A program made the position numbers and the translations under genes. The notes under the pieces are model-generated. The model was not told the DNA's origin and ran no database searches. It worked only from the letters and a program-made list of their open reading frames with translations. Shown piece after piece: positions 12,567 to 37,670 of a stretch of 64,000 nucleotides of DNA; positions within the stretch are counted from its first letter, which is position 1; every line of letters begins with the position of its first letter. The stretch is from Bacteroidota bacterium (GTDB lineage Bacteria > Bacteroidota > Ignavibacteria > UBA10030 > UBA6906): positions 1-64,000 of the forward strand of contig JAHBUR010000011.1 in assembly GCA_019637975.1 (NCBI GenBank). Reading direction: 5' to 3'.

Positions 12567-12588
12567 GATTTTTCTCTTTTATTCTATT

Positions 12589-14337: not shown

Positions 14338-14855
14338 GCCGGTACCTCCTCGGTTTTCTCTTCCCATTGTTTGACGCGCTGAACAGCTGTATCGGCCGAG
14401 AGTTTGCCGACAACGGCATTATCGAGCACGGCAACGGGCGCAAGTCCGCACGAGCCGACACAGCGTGCGGCAATGAGCGACACGTTTTTGTCGGGCGTTG
14501 TCTCGCCGAACTTCACGCAGCAATGTTTCTCCACCGCTTCTTGAATTGCGTCGGCGCCTTTCACATAGCACGCCGTTCCGGTGCAGAGCACGAACGTGTG
14601 TTTGCCGTTCGGCTTCATGCGGAAGAAATGGTAGAACGTCGCCACGCCGTACACGCGGCTGAGCGGCAGCTTCAGCTTATGGGCGATATAAATGAGCAGA
14701 TCCGTTTCGAGATACCCGAAAATGCCCTGCGCCGCGTGCAGCACTTCAATCAGCGCGTAGCCGCTGGACTGATGCTTCGTGATTGCCCGGTCGAGCAACT
14801 TGAAGCGATTATCGCCGCTGGGGTGAGCAGCGGATTTCTTTTCAGGAAGAGGCAT
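14334..14855 (-). CDS. hoxE: Bidirectional hydrogenase subunit HoxE (NuoE-like)
   Basis: 173 residues. A NuoE-type protein with a helical N-terminus and a thioredoxin-like [2Fe-2S] domain. The four ligands are C-T-G-T-A-C near residue 90 and A-A-R-C-V-G-S-C-G near residue 130. It belongs to the diaphorase module with HoxF and HoxU. Its stop codon overlaps the hoxF start, which suggests translational coupling, and hypB ends 12 bases upstream. Assignment as HoxE rather than NuoE rests on the adjacent hoxY and hoxH. Confidence 0.93.
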
Positions 14856-14866
14856 AAATACCTATT

Positions 14867-15556
14867 CTATTTTCTTCGTGAAACTTCGTGTGACCTTGTG
14901 CCTTTGTGTTGAAAAGCCTTGGTCGTGAGCCAGGCACACCACTCATCAATCCCTTGCCCTGTTGTGCAGGAAGTTTCAAAGATGATGAGTGAGGGATTGA
15001 TGCTGAGCGCGTTCCGCTTCAACTCATCAACGTTACACGGTAGATAAGGCAGCAAGTCTGTTTTGTTGATAATCAACACCGACGCATTCCGGAACATCCC
15101 CGGATATTTCAGCGGCTTGTCGTCCCCCTCGGTAGTACTGGCAACAACCACTTTCATCTCTTCTCCCAAGTCATAATTCGCCGGGCAGACGAGATTACCG
15201 ACATTCTCGATAATCAGAAGTTGAATGTCGGTAAGATCGAGATTCTGCAGCGCATCCTGCACAAGCTTCGCTTCAAGATGGCAGCCGCCGTTCGTCACGA
15301 TCTGAACGACAGGGACGCCGTACTTCGCAACTCGCTGTGCATCGAAATCCGTCTGCACATCTCCTTCAACAACGGCGATGTTCAGTTTCCCTTTCAGCAG
15401 TTCCAGCGTCTTCTCCACAAGACTCGTCTTGCCTGCGCCGGGAGAACTGACCATGTTGATGGTGAAGATGTTGCGCGAGGCGAACAGCGTCCGGTTTTGA
15501 CGTGCAAGCTCGTCGTTCTTCTCCAACACTTTTCGTTCAATCGTAATGACACTCAT
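14867..15556 (-). CDS. hypB: Hydrogenase/urease nickel-insertion GTPase HypB
   Basis: 229 residues. This SIMIBI-class GTPase helps deliver nickel to the HoxH precursor together with HypA. The P-loop is S-S-P-G-A-G-K-T-S near residue 39. The metal-binding G-G-C-H-L-E motif, E-N-V-G-N-L-V-C-P and the guanine-specific N-K-T-D motif follow. A His-rich N-terminus is lacking, as in many species. The C-terminal tail from about residue 213 (H-K-G-T-R-S-H-E ...) is encoded by a CTTTGTG-type repeat and is probably not native. It starts within the stop codon of the frameshifted hypA, after a GAGGAG ribosome site. Confidence 0.94.
   Translation of the reverse strand: MSVITIERKVLEKNDELARQNRTLFASRNIFTINMVSSPGAGKTSLVEKTLELLKGKLNIAVVEGDVQTDFDAQRVAKYGVPVVQIVTNGGCHLEAKLVQDALQNLDLTDIQLLIIENVGNLVCPANYDLGEEMKVVVASTTEGDDKPLKYPGMFRNASVLIINKTDLLPYLPCNVDELKRNALSINPSLIIFETSCTTGQGIDEWCAWLTTKAFQHKGTRSHEVSRRK
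14873..14914. repeat. CTTTGTG-type repeat at hypB 3' end
   Basis: CTTCGTGAAACTTCGTGTGA and the adjoining CTTGTGCCTTTGTG match the repeat units in the other hox spacers. It encodes the end of the HypB chain. Confidence 0.6.
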
Positions 15557-15911
15557 GGTGCCTCCTCGGGTTCTTGTACTTCAATTTCTGCCACCTGCAA
15601 CTCTGTCCCTGAAAGCGTTTGCGTTGCCATGCCGCTGCATCGGGGACAAATGGCAATCGGACTGTCGGGTTCCGATGTTACGCCGCATTCGTTGCAATGA
15701 ATAACAAACGGCACAGACACAATCCGCAGTCGCTATTCGGTAAAGGCGTATCAGCCGTGATTGCGGCAAAGCTGAACTCCAGCGAATCGGGCACAACACC
15801 CGCAAGCGCTCCGATCTTTACCGACACATCGTACACACGCGGGAGTTCCTTCTCCTCGAAGTATTGACGGATGATGTCAACGATGCTTTCGGCTATCGAG
15901 AGTTCGTGCAT
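15553..15911 (-). pseudogene. hypA: Nickel-delivery protein HypA, interrupted by a one-base frameshift
   Basis: The start M-H-E-L-S-I-A-E-S-I-V-D is canonical for HypA, with His2 as nickel ligand. The frame is lost near 15725-15745, where one base appears to be missing. Read in the next frame, the protein resumes as R-L-R-I-V-S-V-P-F-V-I and continues through the zinc motifs C-N-E-C and C-P-R-C to a TGA overlapping the hypB start. The repaired product would be 119 residues, a normal length. In the given frame it stops early and loses the zinc domain. This is either a sequencing error or a real inactivation that would impair nickel insertion. It is the first gene of the hox operon. Confidence 0.88.
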
Positions 15912-15954: not shown

Positions 15955-15974
15955 ATTGCAACATCTATGCCCCG
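15955..15974 (-). promoter_or_regulatory. Sigma-54-type promoter for the hypA-hox operon
   Basis: The minus strand reads GGGGCATAGATGTTGCA, with GG and GC ten bases apart and a good TTGCA -12 element. The -24 element differs from TGGCAC at its ends. The GC is 47 bases before the hypA start. Confidence 0.6.
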
Positions 15975-16010: not shown

Positions 16011-16056
16011 TTCCCAGAATTGGGACACCGAAAACGGGCTTCTGTCAGATTTGGGA
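16011..16056 (-). promoter_or_regulatory. Paired palindromic upstream sites (candidate enhancer-binding sites) for hypA-hox
   Basis: TTCCCAGAATTGGGA (16011-16025) and the weaker TGTCAGATTTGGGA (16043-16056) are spaced 31 bases apart, about three helical turns, 40-85 bases upstream of the -24 element. The first is the same palindrome as at 25445-25460. Confidence 0.6.
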
Positions 16057-16087
16057 GAGGGAAGTGAGAGAACAAATAGCTGGCATG

Positions 16088-18991: not shown

Positions 18992-19129
18992 ATAACGTAC
19001 AGGTATTTGCGCAGGCGGGGATTATCGCACCGCCCACTGATACGAGGGTAGCTAATTTCCTCTTGCATTTCACTTCATCCGAAGAACCGCAGCCCCGCTT
19101 GTCGCAAATACCATGTTGCCCGCAGTTAT
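18992..19129 (-). other. attC-like hairpin after the AIPR gene
   Basis: Arms GGTATTTGCGCAGGCGGGG (19002-19020) and CCCCGCTTGTCGCAAATACC (19093-19112) are inverted copies. They are flanked by ATAACGTACA and ATGTTGCCCGCAGTTAT, whose ends pair as ATAAC/GTTAT. The AIPR stop codon TAA lies in the ATAAC box, as in integron cassettes. Confidence 0.5.
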
Positions 19130-20818
19130 ATTTCTTGCGGGGCCGCTGTCATTATTGTTTGAAGGTCTTTGCATCTCGTATAGTTCCTAAATAGTTGGTG
19201 AATTAGAGCGTTCGGATAATTTGTTTCCGTTACTTCAATTGTCTTTGCAGTCCGTTCTTGAATGAGTGTTGGCAATGTGTCATTGAAAAATGCGGCAAAG
19301 TCTGCTGATGGATTCATAAGAATTTCTACTGGAGTTTGATTAATGACGGAGTTGAGAATAAAGTAATTTCCGTATGTGCAAATACTTCTTTCCCTTCCTG
19401 TTTTCGTTTGCCTTAATTCATTCAAGTATTTTGAAACTGCTCTATAAATTTTTATACATCTCCAAAGTTTATCAACCTTCAGGTTTTCATTAAAGATATC
19501 TTTGTATGGTGGCTTAGAAATATCATCCCAAAGCCGTCCTATTTCTCTCTTCGCAGTTACAGCGTGTGTTGTTTCTGTTGTCGCACAAGCAAGAGCAACC
19601 GTTGCTTCTTCCAATGTGCAATTGGTTTCATCGTAAGGAATGACTTCGTCTGTCCTTTTGTAGTGATAATTGATATTTGTCAAAAGTAGTTCTGTTCTTA
19701 ATCGCTGTTGCTCTGGGTCAAGCGTTACGAAGTCTCTTTTCTCAATTTTGTTCTGAGTATTTGATGCTATTGTTATGCTATTGCCAAAATTCTCAGGAGC
19801 ATTTGAAAGTGGAATAAGTCGCACAAATACTTTACTTTTTTGTAACTTATCAGGGAACCTGTCAAGTGCAATGCCTAAACTACCAACAGTTTGAGCTCCG
19901 TTGATAATTGTCAATCCTTTACAATCAAAAAGCCCTGTGGTTTTGCCAACTGTTTTCGCTGGCAGTGGATTAACTGTGTTGCAAAGAATTGTCACACCAT
20001 TATTGAAGTAAATAAATTTTTCTGGTTCGATTTCAATTGTTTTTAGAATACCAGTGTTAATGTCGGATAAGCCAATAAAATTTCTGATGTTCTCGGTGAA
20101 AAGTTTTTTCCTGTGATTCTTCCAAAGCGTTGCTAAGTCATAAGCGGATATTTGTCCGTAGTAAGCAACAAATGGTTCATCAATAGCTCCCCAATTTGAA
20201 AGTGTTACTTCGCTCTCTATTGGCCTCCCTGGCAAGAACTGTATTCAAAGAATCGTGTGCTGCTTTTAAATTAAAGTCGGTAAAAAATGCCCACTCGGTT
20301 GATTCATTGAGAAAATTTATTAGGTCGCTAATTATTCTCTGATTATGAACTGCAAAACCTTTTCCTGTATATGCTAAAACAATATTGAGTTTAATTTGAC
20401 TTTCATTGAAGGCATCTTTAATTATCGGAAGTTTATTCTGAATCTTGATATTGAAACGGTCGTATCTTTCTTCAATTAAGTCAGTGATTCCTTTGGCAAA
20501 CTTATTCATATCGCCTGTGTCGGGCTCTCCATTTCCTTCATCAATCATTTTTGATTGAACAAGATAAATTGTGTTTTGTTGCTCATCAAAATAAACTGCA
20601 TCAATTCCATTATCATCATAGCTGTCTGTGATTGACTTTGCTGCCTCGTCAACAGGAACCGAAGCAAGAATATGTAACGAGTAAGCTGCTAATGCTCGTG
20701 AATGAAATTGTCGTGTTAAATCCTCTGGTCTTGAATTTACAATATCCGTCAAGTCAATTTTGCCAGTAAACAAATTGTCTAACGCTTGTTTGATGTGATT
20801 TACTTGAGGTCTTGCCAT
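19126..20818 (-). pseudogene. AIPR family abortive-infection protein, split by a frameshift
   Basis: Two overlapping frames make one protein. The first 212 residues (20180-20818) include a PD-(D/E)xK-like nuclease core (D-N-G-I-D-A-V-Y-F and L-V-Q-S-K). The second part (19126 to about 20235) holds the AIPR domain with F-N-N-G-V-T-I-L-C, I-I-N-G-A-Q-T-V-G-S and A-S-N-T-Q-N-K-I. Continuity is lost near 20225-20240, where one extra base in a G-rich run would explain the shift. The repaired protein would be about 565-570 residues. AIPR proteins are linked to phage resistance. The gene is clearly richer in A and T than all neighbours, a sign of transfer. Either sequencing error or true inactivation is possible. 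Confidence 0.85.
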
Positions 20819-22696: not shown

Positions 22697-23305
22697 TCAG
22701 CGTTTCTGCCCGTCCAGCGGGATTTTCACGCTCACGGCGCCGCGGAGTTCGCCCGCCTTGTAGTCAACGGCCTTGTCGTTCGGGTAACGCTGTTGGATCG
22801 AGCTGTAAATCAGGTCTCTCATCTTCTCGCGGCCCCCGTGACACGAGAGGCACATGTCGCCGATCATAATCGGCCTCATGTAGCGGAACGTTCTGACATC
22901 ATTCTCTGTCACAACCTGATAGAACTCCGACGTGTCGGAAAGCTTCCCGGCTTTTTTCAATTCGGCAAACTTTTTCAGTTCTGCACTTTCAAACGCGTCG
23001 GGAATGTTCTTCGGGTTCCTCCATTTAACGCTCACACGCCGGATGGAAACCCCGAGCTGCTCCTGCAATCTCTCTCCGACAACCTGGGCACTATCGGCGC
23101 ACACATCGATGGCGCGTACAGCACCGCCTGCCGCGAGTTGTTGTGAGAGGAGAATGCGCATGGTTGTCAGCAGCTTTTTTGCCGCTTCGCGACTATGCTG
23201 AAGGGCGGCCGCGGAATCCATCTGAACAGGTTGGGAGAACGATGGTGCGGCAAGAAGAACGACGGGGCACATACAACTTGTCAGCAACGGCCGGATGCTG
23301 CTCAT
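22697..23305 (-). CDS. DUF3365 (Tll0287-like) secreted haem protein
   Basis: 202 residues. A signal peptide (to about residue 25, A-P-S-F-S-Q) is followed by a single-domain Tll0287/DUF3365 fold with one covalent haem site, C-L-S-C-H, near residue 153. Further family features are A-I-D-V-C, R-R-V-S-x-K-W-R-N-P-x-N-x-P-D and R-x-M-x-P-I. Homologues are periplasmic c-type haem domains thought to sense redox state or gas. Placed between a class V aminotransferase and an FmdB gene, it may report redox conditions for this operon; that is inference. Confidence 0.85.
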   Translation of the reverse strand: MSSIRPLLTSCMCPVVLLAAPSFSQPVQMDSAAALQHSREAAKKLLTTMRILLSQQLAAGGAVRAIDVCADSAQVVGERLQEQLGVSIRRVSVKWRNPKNIPDAFESAELKKFAELKKAGKLSDTSEFYQVVTENDVRTFRYMRPIMIGDMCLSCHGGREKMRDLIYSSIQQRYPNDKAVDYKAGELRGAVSVKIPLDGQKR

Positions 23306-23341: not shown

Positions 23342-24811
23342 CTATCGCGCAGAAGTATCGAGAAACGATTTCACAAATTGCAGTACGCGATACACATCGG
23401 CGAAGTTTGTGGCGAGTCCGAACGAGATGCGGACAGCTCCTGCTGTTTTCCCTTTTACCGCAACGATACATTGCTCGAAGGAACTCCGTTCTTCGTTGCT
23501 GAAACACTCGCGCATATCATTTTGCGTCAAGCCGAAGGCTATCTCTCCCGCGCCCGGATTGCAGAAGCAACCTGTGCGAAGCGAGATATTCAGACGGGCG
23601 GCCTGATCTTCCACCGTATGAAAATTGAACAGGTTGCCGTCGGGGTCGTGGAAATTCAGGGCAACGGTGCCGCCCCGCGCAGTCGTGTCACGCGGGCCGT
23701 ACACTTCAACCAGCGGCATTCCGTTGGAATGACGGAGCGAGAGAATGCCGTTCAGGAACCACCCCGTGAGCAATACAACTCTGTCGTGAATCGTATCAAT
23801 CCCTGCCCCGGCAAGAAACCGGAGCCCGATTTCCACGGCGGGCAAGTTCAGATAGTTGATTGTCCCGTCCTCGAACGCCCTGTCACCTTCGGCAAAATAA
23901 TACTTATCGGCCTGCACAGAAACAACTTCGATTGTGCCGCCGGAGAACCAGGGGCGATGGAGTTTTTTCAATGCGGACTTCCGCGCAATAAGACACCCTA
24001 CTCCCGTCGGGTAGCCGAACATTTTGTAGAATGAGAGCGGAACAAAATCGGGATGATACTTGCTCAAGTCCAGTCTGTTGGTCGGGACAAACGCCGCTGC
24101 ATCCACCACCACATCCCACCCTTTTGACTGCGCCCGTTGAATCCAGTCCAAAGAATGCTGAACGCCTGAAAAGTTGGATTGCGCCGGATACACAAACAGA
24201 TTGTTTCCCGCCGGGTTCGGTTTCTCCAACTGTTGCATGAGTTGTTCGCTGTCAATACGCAGATCGGGCGCGATGACGGGAATGTAGGTAATGGCAGCCC
24301 CCTTCGCCCGGGCAAACTCACGCACGCCGTTGACCGCGTTGTGATTGTCGAACGTGAGCATGTATCGCGATTGCTGACAGAACGGGTACGCTTCGCCGAC
24401 AAGCTTCAGCGCGCCGCTCGCATTCGGCGTGAAGATGGCGACGTACTCGTCGGGCGATGCGTTGAAGTATTCGAGAACATACCTTCTCGCATGTTCATCC
24501 ATTTCGGTTGAAGCGAGAGAGGAAGGACTGTGGGAGTGCGGATTACCGTACACATGATCTTTCAGCATCGCCAGATGTTGTGCGAGCTGGCAGTCGGCGT
24601 ACAAGCCGCCGCCCGTATAATCCACATAGACCTGACCCAGTTTGTCGAGTCGCGTAAACTCCTTCTCGCGGAATTCATCAAGAATGCCCGTCTTGATGTA
24701 CGCGGGATTCTCCTCCAGAAATTCATCGAAGGATTGATGCACGCGCCCGCAATCAGCTGGGGAACTCCCTCTCTCATTCGTCAATGCGTGAATGTCGTTG
24801 GAGTTCATCAT
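23342..24811 (-). CDS. Class V aminotransferase (cysteine desulfurase / MOCOS-N-like)
   Basis: 489 residues. PLP enzyme of the fold that removes sulfur from cysteine. Visible features are Y-V-D-Y-T-G-G-G near residue 62, H-S-H-S-P-S-S, the PLP lysine in S-F-Y-K-M-F-G, and a C-terminal cysteine in R-T-G-C-F-C-N-P-G-A-G, which fits a desulfurase persulfide site. The long form and the N-terminal D-E-F-R-E-K-E-F motif resemble the first domain of molybdenum-cofactor sulfurases. With rhodanese genes nearby, a role in making or moving sulfane sulfur is likely. It follows the protease-like gene by 5 bases. Confidence 0.85.
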   Translation of the reverse strand: MMNSNDIHALTNERGSSPADCGRVHQSFDEFLEENPAYIKTGILDEFREKEFTRLDKLGQVYVDYTGGGLYADCQLAQHLAMLKDHVYGNPHSHSPSSLASTEMDEHARRYVLEYFNASPDEYVAIFTPNASGALKLVGEAYPFCQQSRYMLTFDNHNAVNGVREFARAKGAAITYIPVIAPDLRIDSEQLMQQLEKPNPAGNNLFVYPAQSNFSGVQHSLDWIQRAQSKGWDVVVDAAAFVPTNRLDLSKYHPDFVPLSFYKMFGYPTGVGCLIARKSALKKLHRPWFSGGTIEVVSVQADKYYFAEGDRAFEDGTINYLNLPAVEIGLRFLAGAGIDTIHDRVVLLTGWFLNGILSLRHSNGMPLVEVYGPRDTTARGGTVALNFHDPDGNLFNFHTVEDQAARLNISLRTGCFCNPGAGEIAFGLTQNDMRECFSNEERSSFEQCIVAVKGKTAGAVRISFGLATNFADVYRVLQFVKSFLDTSAR

Positions 24812-24816: not shown

Positions 24817-25308
24817 TCAGGTGTGCAGCGTTTCATGCAGTGACGGCCAGGCACGCAACACAACGCCCGCGCTGTGCAGGTAGGCGGGCATGGCAAGACA
24901 CACTTCCTTGCTGAGAGAGAAACCCGGAGTGTAGTGATTCGGCTGCATACCGATGAAGTGCAGATACTCCGGCAGCGTTCCCTTTTGATGCACGTCCTCA
25001 AACAGGTCAAGGAGATCATGCTGATGCGCGAGGAGCCGGAACCCGCCGAACAGGGTAATGTCGTGTCCCGCCAACTCGATGATCGTTCCCGGAATCCGCC
25101 CGATATCGGCAGCGTCAAGAATCAGCAGATGGCTGCTCTCTTCCAGAATCGATCGGAAGTCGAAGTCAATGCCCGCCTCGATAAACTCGATATCGTCTCT
25201 CGACGGATGGCGCTGCTTCAGCAAACGAAGCGCGTGTTTCCCCAAGCCGCGATCGCCTGTTATGATTTCTCCGATTCCGACTACTACTTTTCGATGCGCG
25301 TGTATCAT
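24817..25308 (-). CDS. Hydrogenase-maturation-protease-like protein with altered metal site
   Basis: 163 residues from the ATG at 25308, after GGAG. It has the M52 fold: G-I-G-E-I-I-T-G-D-R-G-L-G, L-D-A-A-D near residue 67 and A-H-Q-H-D-L-L-D-L-F near residue 94. These line up with the nickel-sensing residues E16, D62 and H93 of HybD, but Arg stands where the Glu/Asp ligand should be, and Glu replaces the Asn of G-x-G-N. So it may not process a hydrogenase. No large-subunit gene is adjacent. It is the first gene of an operon with a class V aminotransferase, and a sigma-54-type promoter stands in front. Confidence 0.8.
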   Translation of the reverse strand: MIHAHRKVVVGIGEIITGDRGLGKHALRLLKQRHPSRDDIEFIEAGIDFDFRSILEESSHLLILDAADIGRIPGTIIELAGHDITLFGGFRLLAHQHDLLDLFEDVHQKGTLPEYLHFIGMQPNHYTPGFSLSKEVCLAMPAYLHSAGVVLRAWPSLHETLHT

Positions 25309-25349: not shown

Positions 25350-25369
25350 ATTTCAACTCATGTGCCAGC
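25350..25369 (-). promoter_or_regulatory. Sigma-54-type promoter for the protease-like/aminotransferase operon
   Basis: The minus strand reads CTGGCACATGAGTTGAAA. The -24 element TGGCAC is perfect and the -12 element TTGA has GA in place of GC at the right ten-base distance. It lies 45 bases before the start at 25308. Confidence 0.55.
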
Positions 25370-25414
25370 ATCCATGCGTATTCTTGCCGATTCTACCGGC
25401 AGAACGATAGGGTT

Positions 25415-25460
25415 TTCCCATTTGCAGGAGACTTCTTCCGAGAGTTCCCAGAATTGGGAA
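25415..25460. promoter_or_regulatory. Shared palindromic sites between two divergent sigma-54-type promoters
   Basis: TTCCCAGAATTGGGAA (25445-25460) has perfect six-base arms. A half-site TTCCCA at 25415 is exactly 30 bases away, and a further TTCCC follows at 25463. The main site is about 73 bases from one -24 element and 80 from the other, the usual place for an enhancer-binding protein. Confidence 0.65.
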
Positions 25461-25530
25461 AGTTCCCTGCAAAAGTCTCAGGATCGTTGAAGATGACTTG
25501 AGAGAATATCAGATTTTTTTCTATATTTGC

Positions 25531-25548
25531 CAGGCACAATACTTGCTA
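25531..25548 (+). promoter_or_regulatory. Sigma-54-type promoter for the MarR-cytochrome-rhodanese operon
   Basis: CAGGCACAATACTTGCTA has GG and GC separated by ten bases, GGCAC and TTGCT elements. Transcription would start near 25558, giving a short leader before the GTG at 25574. Confidence 0.7.
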
Positions 25549-25573
25549 TTAACAATTATTGATGGAGGAAAAA

Positions 25574-26044
25574 GTGACGCGCCGTGCTAATACTAACTAT
25601 GCCCGCGAGATTGCTGATTTAACCTTCAGCCTTCTTGCCAACTGCCAGGAAAAGGAACAACGACTCGCGGATCAATTCCGGACCACGGTTCCTGAATTCA
25701 GATGCCTGCGGGTTTTCAGAGGAGAAGCCAAGATGCCCGTAAGTGCATTGGTGGAACGGCTCAATCTCTCTGCAAGCCGTGTGACTCGTATTCTTGCCAG
25801 CCTTGAGCACAACGGCTACCTCAAGCGCATGATTGATCCTCTCGACCGCAGAAACATCATCGTCGAGCTAACCGCTAAAGGCCTGAGTTTCAGCAGACAA
25901 TTGGAAGACCGGTATGTGAAGATCCACGAGGAACTCCTCGCCGAAATTCCGGTGGAGTTGCATGATTCTCTCGTCGTAGGTCTGAGAAACCTCCTGACAT
26001 CGGTTATGTCCTGGCTTGGCACTTCCTCCAATGAACACTCTTAG
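25574..26044 (+). CDS. MarR family transcriptional regulator
   Basis: 156 residues from GTG at 25574, chosen because GGAGG lies 5 bases before it and because ATG 25562 would be only a few bases inside the predicted transcript. The winged helix is clear: V-S-A-L-V-E-R-L-N-L-S-A-S-R-V-T-R-I as recognition region, then the wing D-P-L-D-R-R-N-I-I-V-E-L-T-A-K-G. The N-terminal helix holds one Cys (C-Q-E-K-E-Q) and one Cys lies before the HTH (F-R-C-L-R), which could sense persulfide or redox state, though this is speculation. It leads the operon with an 11-haem cytochrome, 40 bases downstream. Confidence 0.88.
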   Translation: MTRRANTNYAREIADLTFSLLANCQEKEQRLADQFRTTVPEFRCLRVFRGEAKMPVSALVERLNLSASRVTRILASLEHNGYLKRMIDPLDRRNIIVELTAKGLSFSRQLEDRYVKIHEELLAEIPVELHDSLVVGLRNLLTSVMSWLGTSSNEHS

Positions 26045-26083: not shown

Positions 26084-27448
26084 ATGAACAAGATTTGGCA
26101 ATGCGGGTGTTTTCTGCTGCTCATCATGCTTGTGAGCTCGGGATGCAGCAAGAAATCAACGGAGGGTCCGCTTGCACCCCCGACAACGGACACCGACATG
26201 GCTATTGCATCATGCATCGGTTGTCATACGGATTACACAACGTTGAAACGTATTGCCTCACCCGACACATCAGGCGGCGGCGGCGGTTGCGGAGGCGAGT
26301 TTCCGCATATTGAAGTGTACGACAGAGTGTACCTGGGCGGCGCCGGATTCCAAAAATTCCGGGCATCAACTCACGGACAAATTGCGTGTACACACTGCCA
26401 CGGCGGTGTTGACAGCACCTCCAACAAGCAGGTTGCCCATTCCGGTGATTTCGTAAAATACCCTTCAGCACGTCCGGCAACCAAGTGCGCACAGTGCCAT
26501 TACAATACCGTTCAGAACCATGCCTCAAGTCTTCACGCTAACGGATGGGGGCAGAAAAGCATGGTCACTCTGCGATACGGCGCAAACTCATTCGACGATT
26601 TGCCTGCAACGTTGAAAACCGGTTACAACAATCACTGCGCAAGTTGCCACGCGGAAAAATGCGGCGATTGCCACATCAACCGGCCGACAGCAGGCGGCGG
26701 TGGTTTACTCCGCGGACATTCGTTTGAGCGGCGACCGGATATGCGGGAAAACTGCGTCGCATGCCATTCGAGTCGTGTCGGGCATGGATATTTTGGAATT
26801 GGCAGCGGCACTCAACCGGATGTCCATTCGACGAAATGGGGCGACGGACACTGTGTGAATTGTCATTCAAACGCCGAGATACATGGGGACGGGAACATCT
26901 ACAATCAGCGTTATAAAGTTGCATTTCTGCCCTGGTGTACCGGATGTCATTCAAACATCGCAAACTCCAATCCCTACCATACGGCACACATGAATAGTTT
27001 CAACTGCCAAACGTGCCACTCACAGGACTACAACAACTGCGGCAGTTGCCACGTCGGGGGTGCAGGGGCACGTGTACCTGCGTATCTCGGATTCAAGATC
27101 GGTATGAATCCCATCACGGGCACGCGCCCGTTCAAATACGCTACCCTGCGCCGCGCACTTATGGCTCCGGATAGCTGGCAGAATTACGGGGTTGCCAATC
27201 TGGCCAATTTTGATGTTCGACCTACTTACAAATATGCAACGCCTCACAACACTCTTCGGTGGACATCAAGGACGCGTGTCGAAGCCGGACGTGCGTGCTA
27301 CGATAATTGCCATATCATCAACGAAAACGGAACGTACAGAAACAAGCATCTCTATCTCTTCAACTCAGATCTGCTAAGCTGGGAAATTCCGGCAAACGCA
27401 GGGGTGGTTGTAGATGGCAAGCTACCTGCAAGTTGGGGTACGCCGTGA
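26084..27448 (+). CDS. Undeca-haem lipoprotein cytochrome c
   Basis: 454 residues. The signal peptide ends in the lipobox S-S-G-C near residue 21, so the protein is lipid-anchored outside the cytoplasm. Ten CxxCH motifs are present (C-I-G-C-H, C-T-H-C-H, C-A-Q-C-H, C-A-S-C-H, C-G-D-C-H, C-V-A-C-H, C-V-N-C-H, C-T-G-C-H, C-Q-T-C-H, C-G-S-C-H) and one wider C-Y-D-N-C-H near the C-terminus. A Gly-rich insert with one extra Cys (G-G-G-G-G-C-G-G) follows the first haem. Such proteins carry electrons across the periplasm or outer membrane. The physiological partner is unknown; the adjacent double-rhodanese lipoprotein suggests sulfur chemistry. Confidence 0.9.
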   Translation: MNKIWQCGCFLLLIMLVSSGCSKKSTEGPLAPPTTDTDMAIASCIGCHTDYTTLKRIASPDTSGGGGGCGGEFPHIEVYDRVYLGGAGFQKFRASTHGQIACTHCHGGVDSTSNKQVAHSGDFVKYPSARPATKCAQCHYNTVQNHASSLHANGWGQKSMVTLRYGANSFDDLPATLKTGYNNHCASCHAEKCGDCHINRPTAGGGGLLRGHSFERRPDMRENCVACHSSRVGHGYFGIGSGTQPDVHSTKWGDGHCVNCHSNAEIHGDGNIYNQRYKVAFLPWCTGCHSNIANSNPYHTAHMNSFNCQTCHSQDYNNCGSCHVGGAGARVPAYLGFKIGMNPITGTRPFKYATLRRALMAPDSWQNYGVANLANFDVRPTYKYATPHNTLRWTSRTRVEAGRACYDNCHIINENGTYRNKHLYLFNSDLLSWEIPANAGVVVDGKLPASWGTP

Positions 27449-27491: not shown

Positions 27492-28499
27492 ATGAAATAT
27501 TCACGCTATTTCCTCGTTTTTCTGCTGCCATTAATCTTTCTCACGAGTTGCAAGAAAGATGAAGGACCAACAACAACACCGCCGACGCAGATCAATGAGG
27601 CCGAGGTACTTGTTCAATACCTCGAAGGAAACGGCGACTATATAAACGTCTCTGCCCCATCCGTCGTTGCCGCCTCTGCTGTGTATCAGGACCTCAACGC
27701 CACACCGCCGACGCAGTATATCATTGACCTTCGTTCAAGCGCCGACTTCCAAGGCGGACATATTCAAGGTGCTCACAACGTAGCGCTTGCCGGTTTGATG
27801 ACACATGTGAAGTCGGTCGCCAATGTTTCCAGCTACAACCGGCTTGTCATCGTGTGCTACACGGGTCAGACCTCCGCATACGCAACGTCAATACTCAGAC
27901 TCGCCGGATACAGCAACGCCATATCTCTGAAGTTTGGAATGTGTTCGTGGGACAGCGTTTTTGCCACAACGCGCTGGCTTGCCAGCATAGGCAACTCCAG
28001 GGCAGGTCAATTTGTTACCACATCGACTGCAAAGAATGCAGCGGGCAACCTGCCTACCATCAGCACAGGAAAAACCAACGGTGCCGATATACTCGCCGCC
28101 CGCATTGACACATTGCTCACAAGAGGATATACGGAGGCGACTGTTACCAACGCAACGTTGTTCGGAAACCTCACGGGATACTACATCGTGAACTACTGGC
28201 CATTGACTGAGTATACTGACCCGGGTCATATTCCTGGTGCAATTCAGTACACCCCGAAATCGGATCTGCGACTGGCCACAAACCTTAAGACTCTCCCGAC
28301 CGACAAGCCGATAGCAGTGTATTGCTACACCGGACAAACGAGTTCCTTCATCGCGGCTTATCTAAGGCTCCTCGGGTACGACGCCAAGTCACTGATGTAC
28401 GGGGCCAATGCCATGATCTACGATATGATGGTAGCAAAGAACATGACTACATTCAAAGCAGCAGAAATCATGGGCTATCCATACGTGACGGGACCATAA
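27492..28499 (+). CDS. Double-rhodanese lipoprotein
   Basis: 335 residues with lipobox L-T-S-C (residues 15-18) followed by K-K-D-E. Two rhodanese domains follow. The first has I-D-L-R-S-S-A-D-F-Q-G-G-H and the active loop C-Y-T-G-Q-T-S. The second has H-I-P-G-A and C-Y-T-G-Q-T-S again. Both catalytic cysteines are intact. The protein should transfer sulfane sulfur outside the cytoplasmic membrane. It lies 43 bases after the 11-haem cytochrome and is followed by a strong terminator, so the MarR-cytochrome-rhodanese operon ends here. Confidence 0.9.
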   Translation: MKYSRYFLVFLLPLIFLTSCKKDEGPTTTPPTQINEAEVLVQYLEGNGDYINVSAPSVVAASAVYQDLNATPPTQYIIDLRSSADFQGGHIQGAHNVALAGLMTHVKSVANVSSYNRLVIVCYTGQTSAYATSILRLAGYSNAISLKFGMCSWDSVFATTRWLASIGNSRAGQFVTTSTAKNAAGNLPTISTGKTNGADILAARIDTLLTRGYTEATVTNATLFGNLTGYYIVNYWPLTEYTDPGHIPGAIQYTPKSDLRLATNLKTLPTDKPIAVYCYTGQTSSFIAAYLRLLGYDAKSLMYGANAMIYDMMVAKNMTTFKAAEIMGYPYVTGP

Positions 28500-31295: not shown

Positions 31296-31952
31296 TTAAC
31301 ACCCCTCCTTCTTCTTTTTCTTCGCTGTGCCTGCGGGCGCAGCCGAACCAGCCGGCATCTCCAACTTCGGCATCGCAAGCTGGGGCGTTGCTTGTGCTCT
31401 GCCCGTTCCTGTCTGCGGTGAGCCGCCAAAAAACATGCTTACGGCTTTCCGCTTTTCAAAAGCAGCTTTCTCTTCCGCCGATGCATTTTCTGCAAGAGAA
31501 GGAAAGAGAATCCGGTCTTTCCATTCGGCCAACCCATCGCGTAACATGTACACCGCTTTGTATTGCTTTGCTTTCAGCAGGAACCACGCTTGCGCGGAAT
31601 GAATGCCCCCTTCAGAGTAGAGTATGATTTTTTCATTCCGCGTCAATCCGGCATCTATCAACGACCCGACTGGAATGTTTTCTGCAGTCGGAATGTGATA
31701 CTCGTTGAATTCCTTTTCGTTACGCAAGTCCATGAGACGGTAATCGGCTTTGCCCTGAATAATCCAATCGGCAAGCTCATCAACGGTCACATGGTCAACT
31801 TCCTTCTCGACAAGGAGGGCAAGTTCCTTCACGTTCATTGTTGCTGTGTTGCTTGTGTAAGGACTTCCCGCGAAGATAGCAAGAAATCCCAGAACACCTG
31901 CAACAATAGCAAGCTTTTGATTGAATGAGAGATGTGAGAAGATGGCTTTCAT
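31296..31952 (-). CDS. Membrane-anchored rhodanese-like protein with altered active loop
   Basis: 218 residues from the ATG at 31952, with AAAGGAG upstream and a 4-base overlap with the transporter gene. One N-terminal hydrophobic segment (13-30) is followed by a rhodanese domain: L-M-D-L-R-N-E-K-E-F-N-E-Y-H-I-P. The active loop position reads L-Y-S-E-G-G-I-H-S, with Ser where the catalytic Cys would be, so it probably binds rather than transfers sulfur. The C-terminal tail is Pro/Ala-rich and ends in K-K-K-K-K-E-G-C. Followed by a 110-base spacer with no gene. Confidence 0.82.
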   Translation of the reverse strand: MKAIFSHLSFNQKLAIVAGVLGFLAIFAGSPYTSNTATMNVKELALLVEKEVDHVTVDELADWIIQGKADYRLMDLRNEKEFNEYHIPTAENIPVGSLIDAGLTRNEKIILYSEGGIHSAQAWFLLKAKQYKAVYMLRDGLAEWKDRILFPSLAENASAEEKAAFEKRKAVSMFFGGSPQTGTGRAQATPQLAMPKLEMPAGSAAPAGTAKKKKKEGC

Positions 31953-32545
31953 TGCGCGGCTCCTTTTCTGAATTTCTTCTCCACCCATTCCGCTCCGGCA
32001 AATCCGCCCAACGCCATCACCACCACAAGAAACACCAACAACCCGTATGACATGCCGAACAACTCCGGCAATGTCACGATGTCCATTGCTGTGGATTTGT
32101 AAAAGCCCTCGAGCAACGGAAACATCTCGCCAAAAACAAAGATGCCTGCGATGATACCGAGCAGATAGATCATCGCGTCGTACTTGCCCGTCGCGACTCC
32201 AACACACGATGTTCCGGGGCAATATCCGCCAACGACGAATCCGACGCCGAGGATGAGTCCGCCGACTACTTGCGGCACGAGATACGTCGGGCTGACGTAT
32301 ACAAGCGAGAGATCGACGATGCCGAACACCGAGAGCCAGAACAATCCGACCATTGCCGTGACGATAGCGGTGAACATGACTTTGAAGACTGTCATGTCGT
32401 AGAGATAGAATTGCGCAGCGAGCTTGCGTCCGCTGCCGAAGCCTGCGCGTTCGAGAAAGAATCCGAAGCCGATGCCGATGGCGAATGCAACGATGAGGCT
32501 GATTTCATCGCCGAAGTATCCGAATTTGAAATACGGTGCGTTCAT
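31949..32545 (-). CDS. YeeE/YedE family sulfur-compound transporter, second subunit
   Basis: 198 residues from the ATG at 32545, chosen because AGGAGG lies 8 bases before it and it overlaps the upstream stop as ATGA. About six hydrophobic segments. The family motif G-G-Y-C-P-G-T-S-C-V-G with two cysteines is present; such cysteines relay thiosulfate or sulfane sulfur through the channel in YeeE. It pairs with the gene at 32542-33123 to form a split or two-component version of the transporter. Location in the sulfur-reductase operon supports a sulfur substrate. Confidence 0.88.
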   Translation of the reverse strand: MNAPYFKFGYFGDEISLIVAFAIGIGFGFFLERAGFGSGRKLAAQFYLYDMTVFKVMFTAIVTAMVGLFWLSVFGIVDLSLVYVSPTYLVPQVVGGLILGVGFVVGGYCPGTSCVGVATGKYDAMIYLLGIIAGIFVFGEMFPLLEGFYKSTAMDIVTLPELFGMSYGLLVFLVVVMALGGFAGAEWVEKKFRKGAAQ

Positions 32546-33123
32546 GTCCATTGCCTCCTGAAGAAATATGCAACCGCGTAGCCGCCTGCAAACACCGCAA
32601 GCATGAATGCCCAACTTCCGACGCCCAACAATGCGCCGCCCGTGAGCGCTTGACCGCTGGTGCAACCGCGGGCGAGTTTTGCTCCGAAGCCCATCAGAAT
32701 ACCGCCAAGCAAGGCAAACACCATGCGGCCGCGGGTGGAAATGCGCGGACCTTTCTCAACCGTGCCTTTGATTCGATGTGCAAGTGAACCGGATATGAAT
32801 CCGCCAACGATCACACCGATGACTTCAAACACCAGCCAGTCCTTCAATGGATGGTGTGTTGCATCACCAAGGTATTCCGAAAAGAACGTGTTGGATTGTG
32901 CGTGCTCAGGGGCAACGGCATTGACGCCAACCGAAACCAACGATGTAAAGGCTCCCGAAGCGCCAAGCCCGCGTCCCATGATGACGAACGCTGCGAGAAG
33001 CACGAGGCCCAAGCCAACTCCCGCGAGGTACGGATTCCAGTACGGTTGAGCCTTGCGGTCAGCTTTTGCCACCGACTGCGCAGCAACATCTTCCGGTGAA
33101 ACTGTTTTTGCTAATGTTGTCAT
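32542..33123 (-). CDS. YeeE/YedE family sulfur-compound transporter, first subunit
   Basis: 193 residues. A hydrophilic N-terminus (about 28 residues) precedes the membrane segments. The conserved motif A-R-G-C-T-S-G-Q-A-L-T-G-G lies near residue 150 and supplies one channel cysteine. It is coupled to the next gene by ATGA. The gene begins 31 bases after the NrfD-like subunit gene. Likely imports thiosulfate or another sulfane-sulfur compound for the reductase or for assimilation. Confidence 0.88.
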   Translation of the reverse strand: MTTLAKTVSPEDVAAQSVAKADRKAQPYWNPYLAGVGLGLVLLAAFVIMGRGLGASGAFTSLVSVGVNAVAPEHAQSNTFFSEYLGDATHHPLKDWLVFEVIGVIVGGFISGSLAHRIKGTVEKGPRISTRGRMVFALLGGILMGFGAKLARGCTSGQALTGGALLGVGSWAFMLAVFAGGYAVAYFFRRQWT

Positions 33124-33153
33124 ACTGCTTGTTCTCCAATTGAGTGTGTTCTG

Positions 33154-34098
33154 CTACAACCCGGCAATCGTCCAATGACTGTATTGCCCGGCATAAACGA
33201 TGACAAACCTGAGAATCAATCCCCCCGCGATGACCATTATTGGTGCAACGGGAGTGTGTTGTACTTTATGATTTACCGCCAACAACTGAATGATGAGAGG
33301 AATGATAATTCCGATTCCTATCACAAATACCCAAAACACTGCGGCATACGATCCGCTGAGAATCAATTGCGCTGCATTCTGATGCGCTTGTGTAGAGCTG
33401 AGCAACCCGATGATGAACTGGGCAAATATGAATAACTCAAGAATCAGAAAACCGTTGTCCGCTTTGGCAAGAAGTTCACGTTCGTACTTGTCGTCGGTGA
33501 TGAGGTGAACGAATGCAGCCGCAGCGGAAAGTCCCGACGTCAGAAAGAGAACCCAGAGAATCGAGCTGTTCCAGAGAGGCCGAGCCCCGAGGGCGCTCAG
33601 CAACACGCCGGTGTACATGCCGAGAATTGCGCCGACAATCATGCTGAGCACGCCGATGTTCTTCACAAGAGCCGGACGTTCGTTGATAAATGCCGAGATC
33701 TTGTCGAAGAGTTTAATGCGGTTTTGAAATGCCGGCGGAACCCGCGTCAGCGTACTAGCGAGCAGTGTCGGGTAAACGAGAATGAGAATCCACGAACCCC
33801 ACGACATCGGCGAGGCAATCTTAAACGTTGTGAAGAGTCGCCAGACGTACAGTTTATGTTCGAGGTCGAGGAAAAGCGCAAACATGCCGGCGCTGAGCAG
33901 CACCAGACTGATATGCGGCAACCAGAAGCAGGAAAAGTAGCTGTGCTTGTATCTTCCTTTGAAAATAAAATAGCCGGATATGATCATGATTCCGGCCACG
34001 AGGCCGCCGAGAAACAAATACACCGGAATCTCCCAGCCCCAAATGTGCAACGAAGGGTCAATCTGCGGATTCGTTCGTGTTGTTGTGAGTTCGTGCAT
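33154..34098 (-). CDS. NrfD/PsrC-like quinol-oxidising membrane subunit
   Basis: 314 residues with eight or nine hydrophobic helices. Typical NrfD features are W-G-W-E-I-P-V-Y-L-F-L-G-G-L-V-A-G at the N-terminus and a long C-terminal helical part. In polysulfide or thiosulfate reductases this subunit takes electrons from the quinone pool and passes them to the FeS subunit. It follows the FeS gene after a 137-base spacer filled by a dispersed repeat. Confidence 0.9.
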   Translation of the reverse strand: MHELTTTRTNPQIDPSLHIWGWEIPVYLFLGGLVAGIMIISGYFIFKGRYKHSYFSCFWLPHISLVLLSAGMFALFLDLEHKLYVWRLFTTFKIASPMSWGSWILILVYPTLLASTLTRVPPAFQNRIKLFDKISAFINERPALVKNIGVLSMIVGAILGMYTGVLLSALGARPLWNSSILWVLFLTSGLSAAAAFVHLITDDKYERELLAKADNGFLILELFIFAQFIIGLLSSTQAHQNAAQLILSGSYAAVFWVFVIGIGIIIPLIIQLLAVNHKVQHTPVAPIMVIAGGLILRFVIVYAGQYSHWTIAGL

Positions 34099-34118
34099 AC
34101 AGTTTTGCTCCTTTTTGT

Positions 34119-34230
34119 GTCATTCTGAACGGAGTTCCGACCGCTTTTGTCGGGGCGAAGTGAAGAATCCAGAACCGGCTATGATCTGGATTCTTCGGTC
34201 GCCGCCTCCGGCGGACTCCCTCAGAATGAC
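34119..34230. repeat. GTCATTCTGA-type long imperfect palindrome in the sulfur-reductase operon
   Basis: Ends GTCATTCTGA and TCAGAATGAC, inner arms GAAGAATCCAGA and TCTGGATTCTTC. Same family as 12589-12713. It lies between the FeS-subunit and NrfD genes. Confidence 0.85.
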
Positions 34231-34235
34231 AAACT

Positions 34236-34775
34236 CTATGTCAAATAGAAAATCCTCGGTTGCGTCCCCGCTTCAGGCATCAGCGAATGATTCCTGCGCG
34301 ATGCGAGAAGCCGGCTCACCTGACTGTTCGGATCGTCAAGGTCGCCGAAATACATGCAGTGTGTCGGGCAGACGGAAACACACGCAGGGTCAAGCCCCTT
34401 TTCAACGCGATGAATGCAGAAGGTGCATTTGTCCGCGTAGCCGTCGGGGTGAATAAACCGCGCATCGTAAGGGCACGACGCAACACACGCCTTGCAGCCG
34501 ATGCACTCGTTCTTCGTTACCAACACCACCTTGCCCAACTCATGAACATGACTTGCGCCGGTCGGGCAGCAAGAAACGCACGGCGGATTGTCGCAATGGT
34601 TGCAGCGCTCCGACCGAATTTCAGTTGTCAATGTCGGGAACGTTCCTTTTGTATCCTGCACAATCCAATCTTTGTTGTAGCCTTCGGGAACGTTGTTCTC
34701 CGTCTTGCAGGCAACAACGCAATCCATGCATCCGACGCATTTCTTCGTATCAATCACCATTCCGAATCGTGCCAT
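34236..34775 (-). CDS. Four-cluster ferredoxin subunit of a sulfur-oxyanion/polysulfide reductase
   Basis: 179 residues. Four [4Fe-4S] motifs can be read: C-V-G-C-M-D-C-V-V-A-C, C-N-H-C-D-N-P-P-C-V-S-C-C-P, C-I-G-C-K-A-C-V-A-S-C-P and C-T-F-C-I-H-R ... C-V-S-V-C-P. This is the PsrB/PhsB/DmsB type that carries electrons between the membrane subunit and the molybdenum subunit. Its start lies 2 bases after the stop of the catalytic subunit gene, so the two are coupled. Confidence 0.93.
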   Translation of the reverse strand: MARFGMVIDTKKCVGCMDCVVACKTENNVPEGYNKDWIVQDTKGTFPTLTTEIRSERCNHCDNPPCVSCCPTGASHVHELGKVVLVTKNECIGCKACVASCPYDARFIHPDGYADKCTFCIHRVEKGLDPACVSVCPTHCMYFGDLDDPNSQVSRLLASRRNHSLMPEAGTQPRIFYLT

Positions 34776-34777
34776 GA

Positions 34778-36973
34778 CTATGCCACCTCGCTTTCAATGG
34801 TGACAAAGTTCATGTTCGATGCCGTGCCCCCCATAAGCGGATCGGTGACGTATCGTGTCAGAAGTTGCGCGTCGCTTGCCCCCTTGCCGTACGCAAACTT
34901 CAAGCCTTTGGCATTGTGTCCGAAGCCGTGCACCATGTACGCGCAGTCAGGACGAATCCGTTCTGTTGCCTTCACTTTGATTTTGTTGCTGACGACGCCG
35001 TCTTGATTCTTCAGACGAACATAGTCGCCGCTCTTCACGCCGAACCGCTCAGCGACGGCGGCGTTGATCCAGATTTCATTCTCGCTCATCATATCCATCA
35101 GCACGCGATTCGATTGCGTACGGCTGAAGGAATGAACCGGAGCCCGGCCATATAACAAGCGGAGATATCCGGGCGGGCCGCTTGCAGGACGCGTGTACTT
35201 CGGCACCGGATCGAATCCGGCTTGTTGAAGTTGGAGTGAATAGAATTCAATCTTGCCGGAAGGCGTCGGGAACTCGGCCGGTACTCCTTCATCAAAGTAG
35301 ATCGGCTGGTTTGATCCGCGGATAATCCCCTTCTGCTTCAATTCACTATAGCTCAGGCCGGCAGCTTTCAGGCGATATTCAAAGTACTCTTCGATATCGT
35401 TCCACGGATAGTAATGCCCAAGCCCGAGCTTCTCGGCAAGTTTCTTTGCCATCCACCAGTTCGGTTTTTGGTCGTGAGGGGATTCGACAACCGGCTGACG
35501 CAACGCAACGAACGGCTCGCGGAACCACTCCACATTCAAGTCATCAAAGCGTTCGAGGTACACCGATTCCGGCAACACGACATCAGCCCAGCCGGCAATC
35601 TCACTCGGAATCACGTCAATCACAACGAGCAGATCGAGATTCTGGATCGCTTTGATTGTTTCTTCTTCATTCGGCAGAGCGTGCAGGAGATTCGTTGCGT
35701 ACACAAACCATCCCTTCACAGGATACGGCTTGCCGGTAATCGTCGCTTCGCGAATGCCGGTGGTAATCGTCTCGTGAGCGAACGGATACTTGTGGTCGGG
35801 ATTGTCCACCTTCCCTTTTTCGGATTTGGGATATGGGGGATACGGATACGCAGGTACATCCATACTCACAGGAGTGTAGAACCCGCCTTTCCGTCCCCAA
35901 CTGCCCAGCAGCGCGTTGAGCAATGCAATCGCCCGGCTCCGCTGCGCATCGTCGCCGTACCAGGTAACGTGCCTGCCCGGATGCACAAGAGTCGCAGGTT
36001 TGAAGCGCGCCATCTCACGCGCAGTTTCACGAATCACCTCGGGCTCGATGCCCGATTCGGGATACGCCCATTCGGGTGTGTACTGTTGGAGTGATGCAGC
36101 AAACTGATCGAATCCAAAACCATACTTCTGAACATATTCAACGTCGTACAATCTTTCGTTGACGATGACATTCATCCACGCCAGCAGAAGCGCGAGGTCA
36201 GTTCCGGGTTTGATGGGAAGATAATGTTTTGCCTTGCTTGCCGCGACGGAAAAACGCGGATCAACCACGATAATGCTCGCGCCGTTTTCGATTGCCTCGG
36301 CAAACTCCTGCACCTGTGTGTTGTGCATGTTTTCACCCAAATGACTGCCGATGAGAACAAGACATCTTGCATTCTTGATGTCCGTTCGTTCCGGCGAGCT
36401 GACATCTTCACCGAACGTCAAGCGGAACCCGACGTCACGCGGGCCGCGGCATTGGGCAAACGACGGCGCCGAGATGTTCGGCGTACCGAAGGCTTTGAGT
36501 GTATGCTTGAAGAAATTCCCGCCGATGCCGTGACTGAACAAAGCAACAGATTCGGGGCCGTGTTGGGCTTTGATCTTCTGCATCTTCTCTGCAATGTACA
36601 TGAAAGCTTCATCCCACGTCACTTCAACCCACTCTTCTTTGCCGCGATTGCTTTTGCGGATGAGGGGCACCTTCAAGCGATCGGGATCGTAATGCGCTCC
36701 AACGCCTCCGGTGCCGCGGGGACATAGCCTGCCGTTACTCAGCGGATCGTTCGGGTTTCCTTCCACCTTCCACAACTGCCCGTCCTTCACATGGGCAATC
36801 GCGCCGCATTTCCAGAAGCAGATATCGCAATAAGTAGGAATCGTTTCAACGTCAGCGGCCGGCTTCTTCCTGTTCAGAAGCTGCGTACCTTTTAACACCG
36901 CTGTGCCTGCGGCTGCAACACCGATGGTTGCCCCGCTTATCTTCAAAAATCTTCGTCGTGATAGAGAGTTCAT
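34778..36973 (-). CDS. Molybdopterin catalytic subunit, polysulfide/thiosulfate reductase type
   Basis: 731 residues from the ATG at 36973, where a twin-arginine signal (S-R-R-R-F-L-K) begins. An N-terminal [4Fe-4S] site is seen in C-D-I-C-F-W-K-C ... G-R-L-C-P-R-G-T. The likely molybdenum-ligand Cys is in S-F-A-Q-C-R-G-P-R-D. A C-terminal MGD-binding domain (V-H-G-F-G-H-N-A) follows. With PsrB- and PsrC-like partners it resembles PsrA/PhsA; tetrathionate or arsenate reduction cannot be excluded from sequence alone. The YeeE transporters and rhodanese in the operon favour sulfur. It should act outside the cytoplasmic membrane. Confidence 0.9.
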   Translation of the reverse strand: MNSLSRRRFLKISGATIGVAAAGTAVLKGTQLLNRKKPAADVETIPTYCDICFWKCGAIAHVKDGQLWKVEGNPNDPLSNGRLCPRGTGGVGAHYDPDRLKVPLIRKSNRGKEEWVEVTWDEAFMYIAEKMQKIKAQHGPESVALFSHGIGGNFFKHTLKAFGTPNISAPSFAQCRGPRDVGFRLTFGEDVSSPERTDIKNARCLVLIGSHLGENMHNTQVQEFAEAIENGASIIVVDPRFSVAASKAKHYLPIKPGTDLALLLAWMNVIVNERLYDVEYVQKYGFGFDQFAASLQQYTPEWAYPESGIEPEVIRETAREMARFKPATLVHPGRHVTWYGDDAQRSRAIALLNALLGSWGRKGGFYTPVSMDVPAYPYPPYPKSEKGKVDNPDHKYPFAHETITTGIREATITGKPYPVKGWFVYATNLLHALPNEEETIKAIQNLDLLVVIDVIPSEIAGWADVVLPESVYLERFDDLNVEWFREPFVALRQPVVESPHDQKPNWWMAKKLAEKLGLGHYYPWNDIEEYFEYRLKAAGLSYSELKQKGIIRGSNQPIYFDEGVPAEFPTPSGKIEFYSLQLQQAGFDPVPKYTRPASGPPGYLRLLYGRAPVHSFSRTQSNRVLMDMMSENEIWINAAVAERFGVKSGDYVRLKNQDGVVSNKIKVKATERIRPDCAYMVHGFGHNAKGLKFAYGKGASDAQLLTRYVTDPLMGGTASNMNFVTIESEVA

Positions 36974-37001
36974 GGTAGTTGATGAGAGGCCGGTTTTACG
37001 T

Positions 37002-37493
37002 TCATTCTGCGGGTGCAACCTCGATGCCGAGTGTGTGCGTTACAATTGCCTGTTTAATCGCAGAGCAGCTTGCCACTTCGGTGTACACGGAACATTCCCT
37101 GCAATCGGCACTCCTGCATTCCCAGGATTTGCCTGAAACCATCCAACATGGCTTGTCGTGCTGATGAAATGCAGCGCATTGTTCCCGTTCATCGGGGGGA
37201 CAATTGAGAATCTTCCAGCACGGAATAAGCGAAAGCAGCCGGCGAATGCCCGCTATGCTCACTTTGTCATGGTTGATCATTGTCCGGATGCAACGGATGC
37301 GTTCAACGTCATTTTGCGAGAACCGGCGATGCTTCGAACGTTTCCGGTAAGGAATAATCAATCCCTCCCGTTCATACATGCGAATGGTTGGAATGGAGAT
37401 GCCGAGGATATCCGCCGCTTCACCGATTGTGTACAGCGTTGATGTAACGAACGGCCCGGCCGTGGCCATATTGATTGCGAGGCGGTCACTCAT
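37002..37493 (-). CDS. MerR-type regulator with C-terminal two-CW cysteine domain
   Basis: 163 residues from the ATG at 37493, with AAGGGAG upstream. The N-terminal MerR helix-turn-helix reads Y-T-I-G-E-A-A-D-I-L-G-I-S and R-M-Y-E-R-E-G-L-I. The C-terminal half has C-W-x-x-x-x-C, C-A-A-F, C-W-M-V and C-x-x-x-D-C-R-E-C-S-V-Y, ten or so cysteines in the arrangement of two-CW domains, which may bind a metal or FeS cluster. It heads the sulfur-reductase operon, 28 bases before the catalytic subunit gene, and has a sigma-54-type promoter. It is probably a redox or sulfur-responsive local regulator. Confidence 0.88.
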   Translation of the reverse strand: MSDRLAINMATAGPFVTSTLYTIGEAADILGISIPTIRMYEREGLIIPYRKRSKHRRFSQNDVERIRCIRTMINHDKVSIAGIRRLLSLIPCWKILNCPPDEREQCAAFHQHDKPCWMVSGKSWECRSADCRECSVYTEVASCSAIKQAIVTHTLGIEVAPAE

Positions 37494-37527
37494 TGAAATT
37501 CTCCCTTCAGAATATCTGTCAATCATA

Positions 37528-37547
37528 AATGCAGATTTTGTGCCACG
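37528..37547 (-). promoter_or_regulatory. Sigma-54-type promoter for the MerR-led sulfur-reductase operon
   Basis: The minus strand reads CGTGGCACAAAATCTGCATT, with TGGCAC and TGCA at the exact GG-N10-GC spacing. The GC is 38 bases before the MerR start. The near-identical element precedes osmC. Confidence 0.78.
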
Positions 37548-37595: not shown

Positions 37596-37670
37596 TTCCC
37601 AGAAATGAAAAACCGTGGCTGCGTTTCTCAATCCTGAACATGACCGTGCTTGCCATATTTCATTCCCAGA
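37596..37670 (-). promoter_or_regulatory. Two TTCTGGGAA-type upstream sites before the MerR-led operon
   Basis: The minus strand holds TTCATTTCTGGGAA (near 37596-37609) and TTCATATCTGGGAA (near 37663-37676), about 52 and 119 bases upstream of the -24 element. They share the half-site of the palindromes at 16011 and 25445. Confidence 0.6.

Follow-up and report, generated by a model that had tools for sequence, protein, structure and literature searches.

A conserved palindrome and sigma-54-type promoter elements between two divergent sulfur/redox operons of an Ignavibacteria genome, and a predicted wider regulon

Two divergent operons and their intergenic region

The window analysed here is a stretch of 64,000 nucleotides from a 4.25-Mb Ignavibacteria genome. 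The intergenic region at 25350-25548 separates two operons that are transcribed in opposite directions (Table 1). The first-pass annotation of this locus had described a cytochrome/rhodanese operon facing an aminotransferase/DUF3365 operon; both sets of genes are present, but the leading marR and HycI-type protease genes had been overlooked. The cytochrome, described there as an 11-haem protein, is indeed multihaem, but its CXXCH motifs of canonical form number ten, and an eleventh haem would require the non-canonical CYDNCH.

Table 1. Genes, operons and putative regulatory elements in the window
Feature	Position	Strand	Remarks
Tll0287/DUF3365 domain protein with CXXCH motif	22697-23305	-	PF11845
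Class-V aminotransferase, cysteine-desulfurase-like	23342-24811	-	minus operon
HycI/HyaD-type hydrogenase maturation protease	24817-25308	-	first gene of minus operon; TIGR00072 above cut-off
Minus sigma-54-type -24/-12 element TGGCACATGAGTTGAA	25367-25352	-	protease-aminotransferase-Tll0287 operon; 77 nt from palindrome
Second, degenerate half-matching site TTCCCATTTGCAGGAG	25415-25430	+	exactly 30 bp from TTCCCAGAATTGGGAA, three helical turns
Main enhancer-like palindrome TTCCCAGAATTGGGAA	25445-25460	.	common to both divergent promoters; sequence read directly
Plus sigma-54-type -24/-12 element AGGCACAATACTTGCT	25532-25547	+	marR-cytochrome-rhodanese operon; 71 nt from palindrome
Imperfect dyad AATACTTGC-N5-ACAATTATT	25538-25560	.	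candidate MarR operator, over -12/+1 of plus promoter
marR-family regulator gene	25574-26044	+	first gene of plus operon; PF01047, 1.8e-11
Multihaem c-type cytochrome lipoprotein	26084-27448	+	10 CXXCH
Double-rhodanese lipoprotein	27492-28499	+	PF00581, two stretches
hypA, hypB, hoxE/F/U/Y/H-like operon, NAD-linked [NiFe] hydrogenase	9587-15911	-
Sigma-54-type element GGGCATAGATGTTGCA of hyp-hox operon	15957-15972	-	54 nt start-to-start from GTCCCAATTCTGGGAA
Second palindrome GTCCCAATTCTGGGAA	16011-16026	-	before hypAB-hox operon
Tandem site CTCCCAAATCTGACAG	16042-16057	-	31 bp further upstream; kept in G001
merR operon	31296-37526	-	predicted third target
Sigma-54-type element TGGCACAAAATCTGCA	37530-37545	-	kept before most merR orthologues examined in the order
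Third enhancer-like site TTTTCATTTCTGGGAA (minus-strand letters)	37596-37611	.
Tandem partner TGTTCAGGATTGAGAA	37625-37640	-	29 bp from TTTTCATTTCTGGGAA

A palindrome between two divergent GG-N10-GC/GA elements, with a half-site 30 bases away, had been claimed for this region, and direct reading of the sequence finds all of these. In the plus element the sigma-54 register is exact, with the -24 GG and the -12 GC 10 nt apart. The minus element ends in TTGAA, hence GA instead of GC at -12, and keeps the register. The GGCAY...TTGC of the plus element is kept in the marR-cytochrome operon promoters of four relatives (G059, G048, G039 and G043), while the counterpart of the minus element in G001, a genome of the same genus, is TGGCATGTGAGTTGAA, whose spacing to the start codon differs.

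The exact 16-mer TTCCCAGAATTGGGAA occurs once in the genome; a single one-mismatch copy exists genome-wide, and it too falls inside the window, at 16011-16026 ahead of the hypA-hox operon. The palindrome count in the window alone is not significant (5 matches at up to 2 mismatches vs 3.1 expected); what makes the site significant is that it is conserved and is accompanied by sigma-54 elements.

Recurrence of the site in the genome and in Ignavibacteria

The window holds two further sets of paired sites with a -24/-12 element, before the hyp-hox and merR operons. The hyp-hox genes were named from their sequence together with cobW/HypB and hydrogenase family matches. In G001 both hox sites and the -24/-12 element are kept, and the sequence further upstream is unrelated. 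The merR operon encodes MerR, a thiosulfate/polysulfide-reductase-type molybdoenzyme, a ferredoxin-like subunit and NrfD, as well as two YeeE/YedE-type transporters and a rhodanese. Two apparent frameshifts were seen in the window. hypA (15550-15911, minus strand) appears to shift frame around codons 58-60 when aligned with G001 and other relatives, with an in-frame alignment only over codons 1-60, which may be an assembly error or real. At 19126-20818 (minus strand), two overlapping ORFs look, by eye, like the frameshifted parts of one AIPR-type abortive-infection protein.

A consensus was derived from the hox promoters of relatives plus the window's own sites and was then applied to other promoters; the marR orthologue, merR and HK109 promoters (HK109 being a sensor kinase discussed below) took no part in its derivation. 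Across Ignavibacteria the consensus site is TTYYCAnnnnTGRRAA, often paired 29-32 bp apart, with a TGGCAY-type -24/-12 element roughly 50-105 nt away. An initial sigma-54 matrix was composed from general knowledge of such elements, and the later counts rest on consensus matches only; genome-wide work was done by pattern searches in draft genomes. Since the relaxed site is A+T-rich, single weak sites carry little meaning, with scores of 9-10 having chance frequencies of 33% and 11%.

In the hoxE/hypA promoters of relatives, sigma-54 elements are preceded by consensus sites, often as 30-bp pairs, and 16 of 19 promoters reach the joint threshold compared to a mean of 0.03 in dinucleotide shuffles; those of G048, G038 and G043 fall below it. 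Using the hox-derived consensus, all five marR operon promoters and the HK109 operon promoters of 7 out of 10 genomes pass the joint score (shuffled mean ≤0.02 for each), with G059, G048 and G043 failing for HK109. At the merR loci, site and element are present in 24/25, and a site score of ≥11 was obtained for 14 of 23 merR-psr promoters, against a shuffled mean of 0.46. Strict-pattern matches before a transketolase gene in G079/G080, and those in G052, G072 and G080:C46, were set aside as possible chance matches.

Genome-wide, 18 perfect consensus sites were found in this genome and 15 in G001, vs 3 and 0, respectively, for the reversed control. The first-pass annotation had held that its proposal would fail if the palindrome were common without sigma-54 elements. 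That check left the proposal standing: 10 of the 18 perfect sites are followed at 45-140 nt by such an element, compared with an expectation of about 0.7 for randomly placed positions; at the other eight a recognisable element is missing. Eight of the ten site-plus-element cases recur in G001 with identical or nearly identical spacing. The predicted targets include both divergent operons, hypAB-hox, the merR-sulfur reductase operon, the HK109 haem-sensor two-component operon, a sulfhydrogenase-like operon (iron-sulfur protein, Crp-like protein, flavin protein, hydrogenase small subunit), hemN, a UspA-multihaem-cytochrome operon, a TonB-like gene, serine-synthesis genes (aminotransferase, dehydrogenase), an ornithine carbamoyltransferase-carbamate kinase pair and, with a weaker element, a methylmalonyl-CoA operon. 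Names of target genes without family matches are our reading of the sequences. Co-regulation of the two divergent operons, as originally proposed, is supported by these comparative data at the sequence level, while the predicted set is wider, with two hydrogenases, the sulfur reductase, hemN, cytochromes and a sensor kinase.

The arrangement has the features of a sigma-54-dependent promoter, namely a -24/-12 element whose GGCAY is kept in orthologous promoters, and of upstream activator sites, which are usually paired dyads on the same DNA face some 70-150 bp ahead of the transcription start: here the pairs are 29-32 bp apart and lie 50-105 nt from the -24/-12 element. In all likelihood the palindrome, which recurs in this genome and its relatives, is an enhancer for an NtrC-type activator. 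The enhancer-binding-protein/sigma-54 control suggested at first is supported by the presence of rpoN and by the consistent spacing of site and -24/-12 element in orthologous promoters, and it is considered highly probable that an NtrC-family upstream activator site drives sigma-54 at both divergent promoters and at the dispersed operons.

Alternatively, the site could be real but serve a sigma-70-type (non-enhancer) activator or repressor, with transcription from housekeeping promoters. In this genome the plus -24 element is closely preceded by a Bacteroidota-like TTG-N21-TATATTTG, but the orthologous marR promoters lack it at this position and keep GGCAY-N6-TTGC. In addition, many unrelated operons have a -24/-12 element 50-105 nt from the site, and both the tandem 29-32-bp spacing and the placement of sites near -70 to -140 are as expected of enhancers, making the sigma-70 reading improbable.

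The palindrome could also be the operator of the adjacent MarR, repressing both operons, with the sigma-54 look-alikes being accidental. The distance from the palindrome to the marR start is 113 bp, and divergent autoregulation is widespread among MarR-family proteins. However, G001 keeps the palindromes before hox without this MarR, and genomes that have no related MarR still carry the site ahead of hox, merR, EBP-kinase and cytochrome operons. Moreover, a better candidate MarR-type dyad over the -12/+1 region of the plus promoter recurs at marR promoters; comparison of its arms by hand gives a perfect dyad in G043 (AATAGTTGC-N5-GCAACTATT), 7/9 in this genome, G048 and G039, and a weak one in G059. 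A MarR operator at the palindrome is therefore very unlikely. Under sigma-54 control, MarR probably acts as an autorepressor at the plus promoter, occupying the -12/+1 dyad, where a bound repressor would block the sigma-54 polymerase. A distant MarR homologue in G049 (L094) is followed by HdrC-like and hydrogenase-protease-like genes and has TTGCACAATATTTGCC upstream.

Least likely of all is that conservation and co-occurrence are by-products of A+T-rich promoters and a data-fitted consensus, which is itself palindromic and often matched weakly by chance, since the strict palindrome has its single one-mismatch copy before hox, neither dinucleotide shuffles nor the reversed control reproduce the result, and three promoter families lay outside the derivation.

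Candidate activators and proposed mechanism

The rpoN gene was identified at C5:122032 (PF04552, 3.1e-56), and about 17 genes of the genome encode activator domains. Two NtrC-type response regulators carrying GAFTGA are linked to the site and are the leading candidate activators: EBP108 (contig C4), encoded with a PAS kinase, and EBP109 (contig C31), encoded with the kinase HK109. NCBIfam profiles on EBP109 gave AtoC, NtrC and ZraR matches, all sub-threshold. An archaemetzincin gene (PF07998; L109 10866-11408, plus strand) lies directly downstream of EBP109 and holds the same position in most genomes checked. The first-pass annotation had called for an NtrC-family gene that co-occurs with the site, and orthologues of EBP108 and EBP109 are present in 10/10 motif-bearing genomes tested. 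EBP113 co-occurs to the same extent, with no link to the site found.

Site and element lie directly downstream of the EBP108 gene in 17 genomes, and in most f1 genomes this site precedes the UspA-cytochrome operon. In G006 no EBP109 was found, yet site and element are present downstream of EBP108. The site also stands before HK109-EBP109 in this genome and in G001, G008, G013, G035, G039 and G045, which is compatible with autoregulation or a cascade. EBP108 is favoured as the binder, with EBP109 as a target or partner, because the EBP108-linked site occurs in the 17 genomes, G006 among them. Raw site counts exceed the control 4.6-fold in genomes with EBP109 and 3.2-fold in those without it, a comparison that does not pinpoint the activator. 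Overall, whether EBP108 is the activator is about evenly balanced; EBP109 is a possible but less probable choice, and another protein is unlikely.

In ten genomes the periplasmic part of HK109 has two invariant motifs, a CXXCH and a Cys-x4-Cys-His. Its structural model (pLDDT 76.8) has its best matches among the single-Cache sensors WalK, KinD and CitA, and no PF11845 match was found for HK109.

Two other activators were considered and rejected. EBP110 (C34), which is encoded beside an NrfD-type operon and came into question on account of its haem-type kinase, has no close orthologue in the site-bearing genomes G001, G004 and G008. A hydrogenase-linked activator (L071 11102-12133, minus strand) has GAYTSA, not GAFTGA, and about 32-47% matches to the activators of this genome. 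The latter, encoded within a hydrogenase cluster, has no receiver domain and may not contact sigma-54. The EBP110 locus (L110, G000:C34, 1-9102) comprises EBP110, its CXXCH-bearing kinase, an archaemetzincin-like gene and the NrfD-type operon; EBP110 and its kinase form a second haem-kinase/NtrC pair, paralogous to EBP109.

In the proposed mechanism, dimers of an NtrC-family response regulator would occupy the main site as well as its partner 30 bp off. Phosphorylation by the partner kinase would lead to oligomerisation, and the oligomer would loop the DNA and open sigma-54 RNA polymerase at both divergent -24/-12 elements. The protease/aminotransferase/Tll0287 and marR-cytochrome-rhodanese operons would be switched on together with hypAB-hox and the merR-sulfur-reductase operon, and the same activation would extend to the sulfhydrogenase-like operon, hemN, the UspA-multihaem-cytochrome operon and the haem-sensor two-component operon. 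The signal may be the redox or electron-acceptor state, sensed through the cytoplasmic PAS kinase or the periplasmic c-haem Cache kinase.

The broadest reading, judged reasonably probable, is an undescribed, order-wide Ignavibacteria sigma-54 regulon. One or two NtrC-type regulators, coupled to a PAS kinase and a two-haem periplasmic Cache kinase, would coordinate hydrogenases, polysulfide/thiosulfate reductase, multihaem cytochromes and haem synthesis via TTYYCAnnnnTGRRAA, and MarR would act as a brake at the cytochrome-rhodanese start site. A defined site, its operons and two candidate activators make the hydrogen/sulfur energy metabolism of this lineage testable in vitro.

Comparison with known systems

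While the kind of regulon is known, the literature searched appears to contain no description of this site, its targets or its candidate regulators. Searches for the palindrome gave nothing relevant, and no described sigma-54 regulon was found there for the closest named relatives, uncultured Ignavibacteria represented in metagenomes of groundwater, fen soil and reactors.

The nearest parallel is HoxA/HupR of Cupriavidus necator and Rhodobacter, where an NtrC-family response regulator and sigma-54 likewise drive [NiFe] hydrogenase operons. HupR reportedly binds TTG-N5-CAA. The present system differs in its palindrome, in targets that add sulfur reductase, cytochromes and hemN, and in its Ignavibacteria host; in the stretches read, no H2-sensing hydrogenase/HoxJ pair was seen beside these activators. 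In C. necator, the promoters of both the NAD-reducing (SH) and the membrane hydrogenase depend on sigma-54 and HoxA (PMC4377017).

A second parallel is DVU3142 of Desulfovibrio, a sigma-54 activator with predicted sites before an octahaem cytochrome complex operon (PMC4641369). The multihaem cytochrome target and the comparative method are shared, whereas DVU3142 has a single local target operon and the regulon here is dispersed and includes hydrogenases. The strings TTCCC, TGGGA and GGGAA do not occur in the main text of that paper.

Finally, HK109 resembles the c-haem Cache sensors (sCache_heme, DUF3365/Tll0287; PMC12889525) in combining a predicted single-Cache fold with an invariant CXXCH; the minus operon also codes for a Tll0287 protein. 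HK109 differs from these sensors in lacking the PF11845 match and in having the second Cys-x4-Cys-His. In this lineage a c-haem sensor kinase, and not an H2-sensing hydrogenase, may be what hydrogenase expression is tied to.
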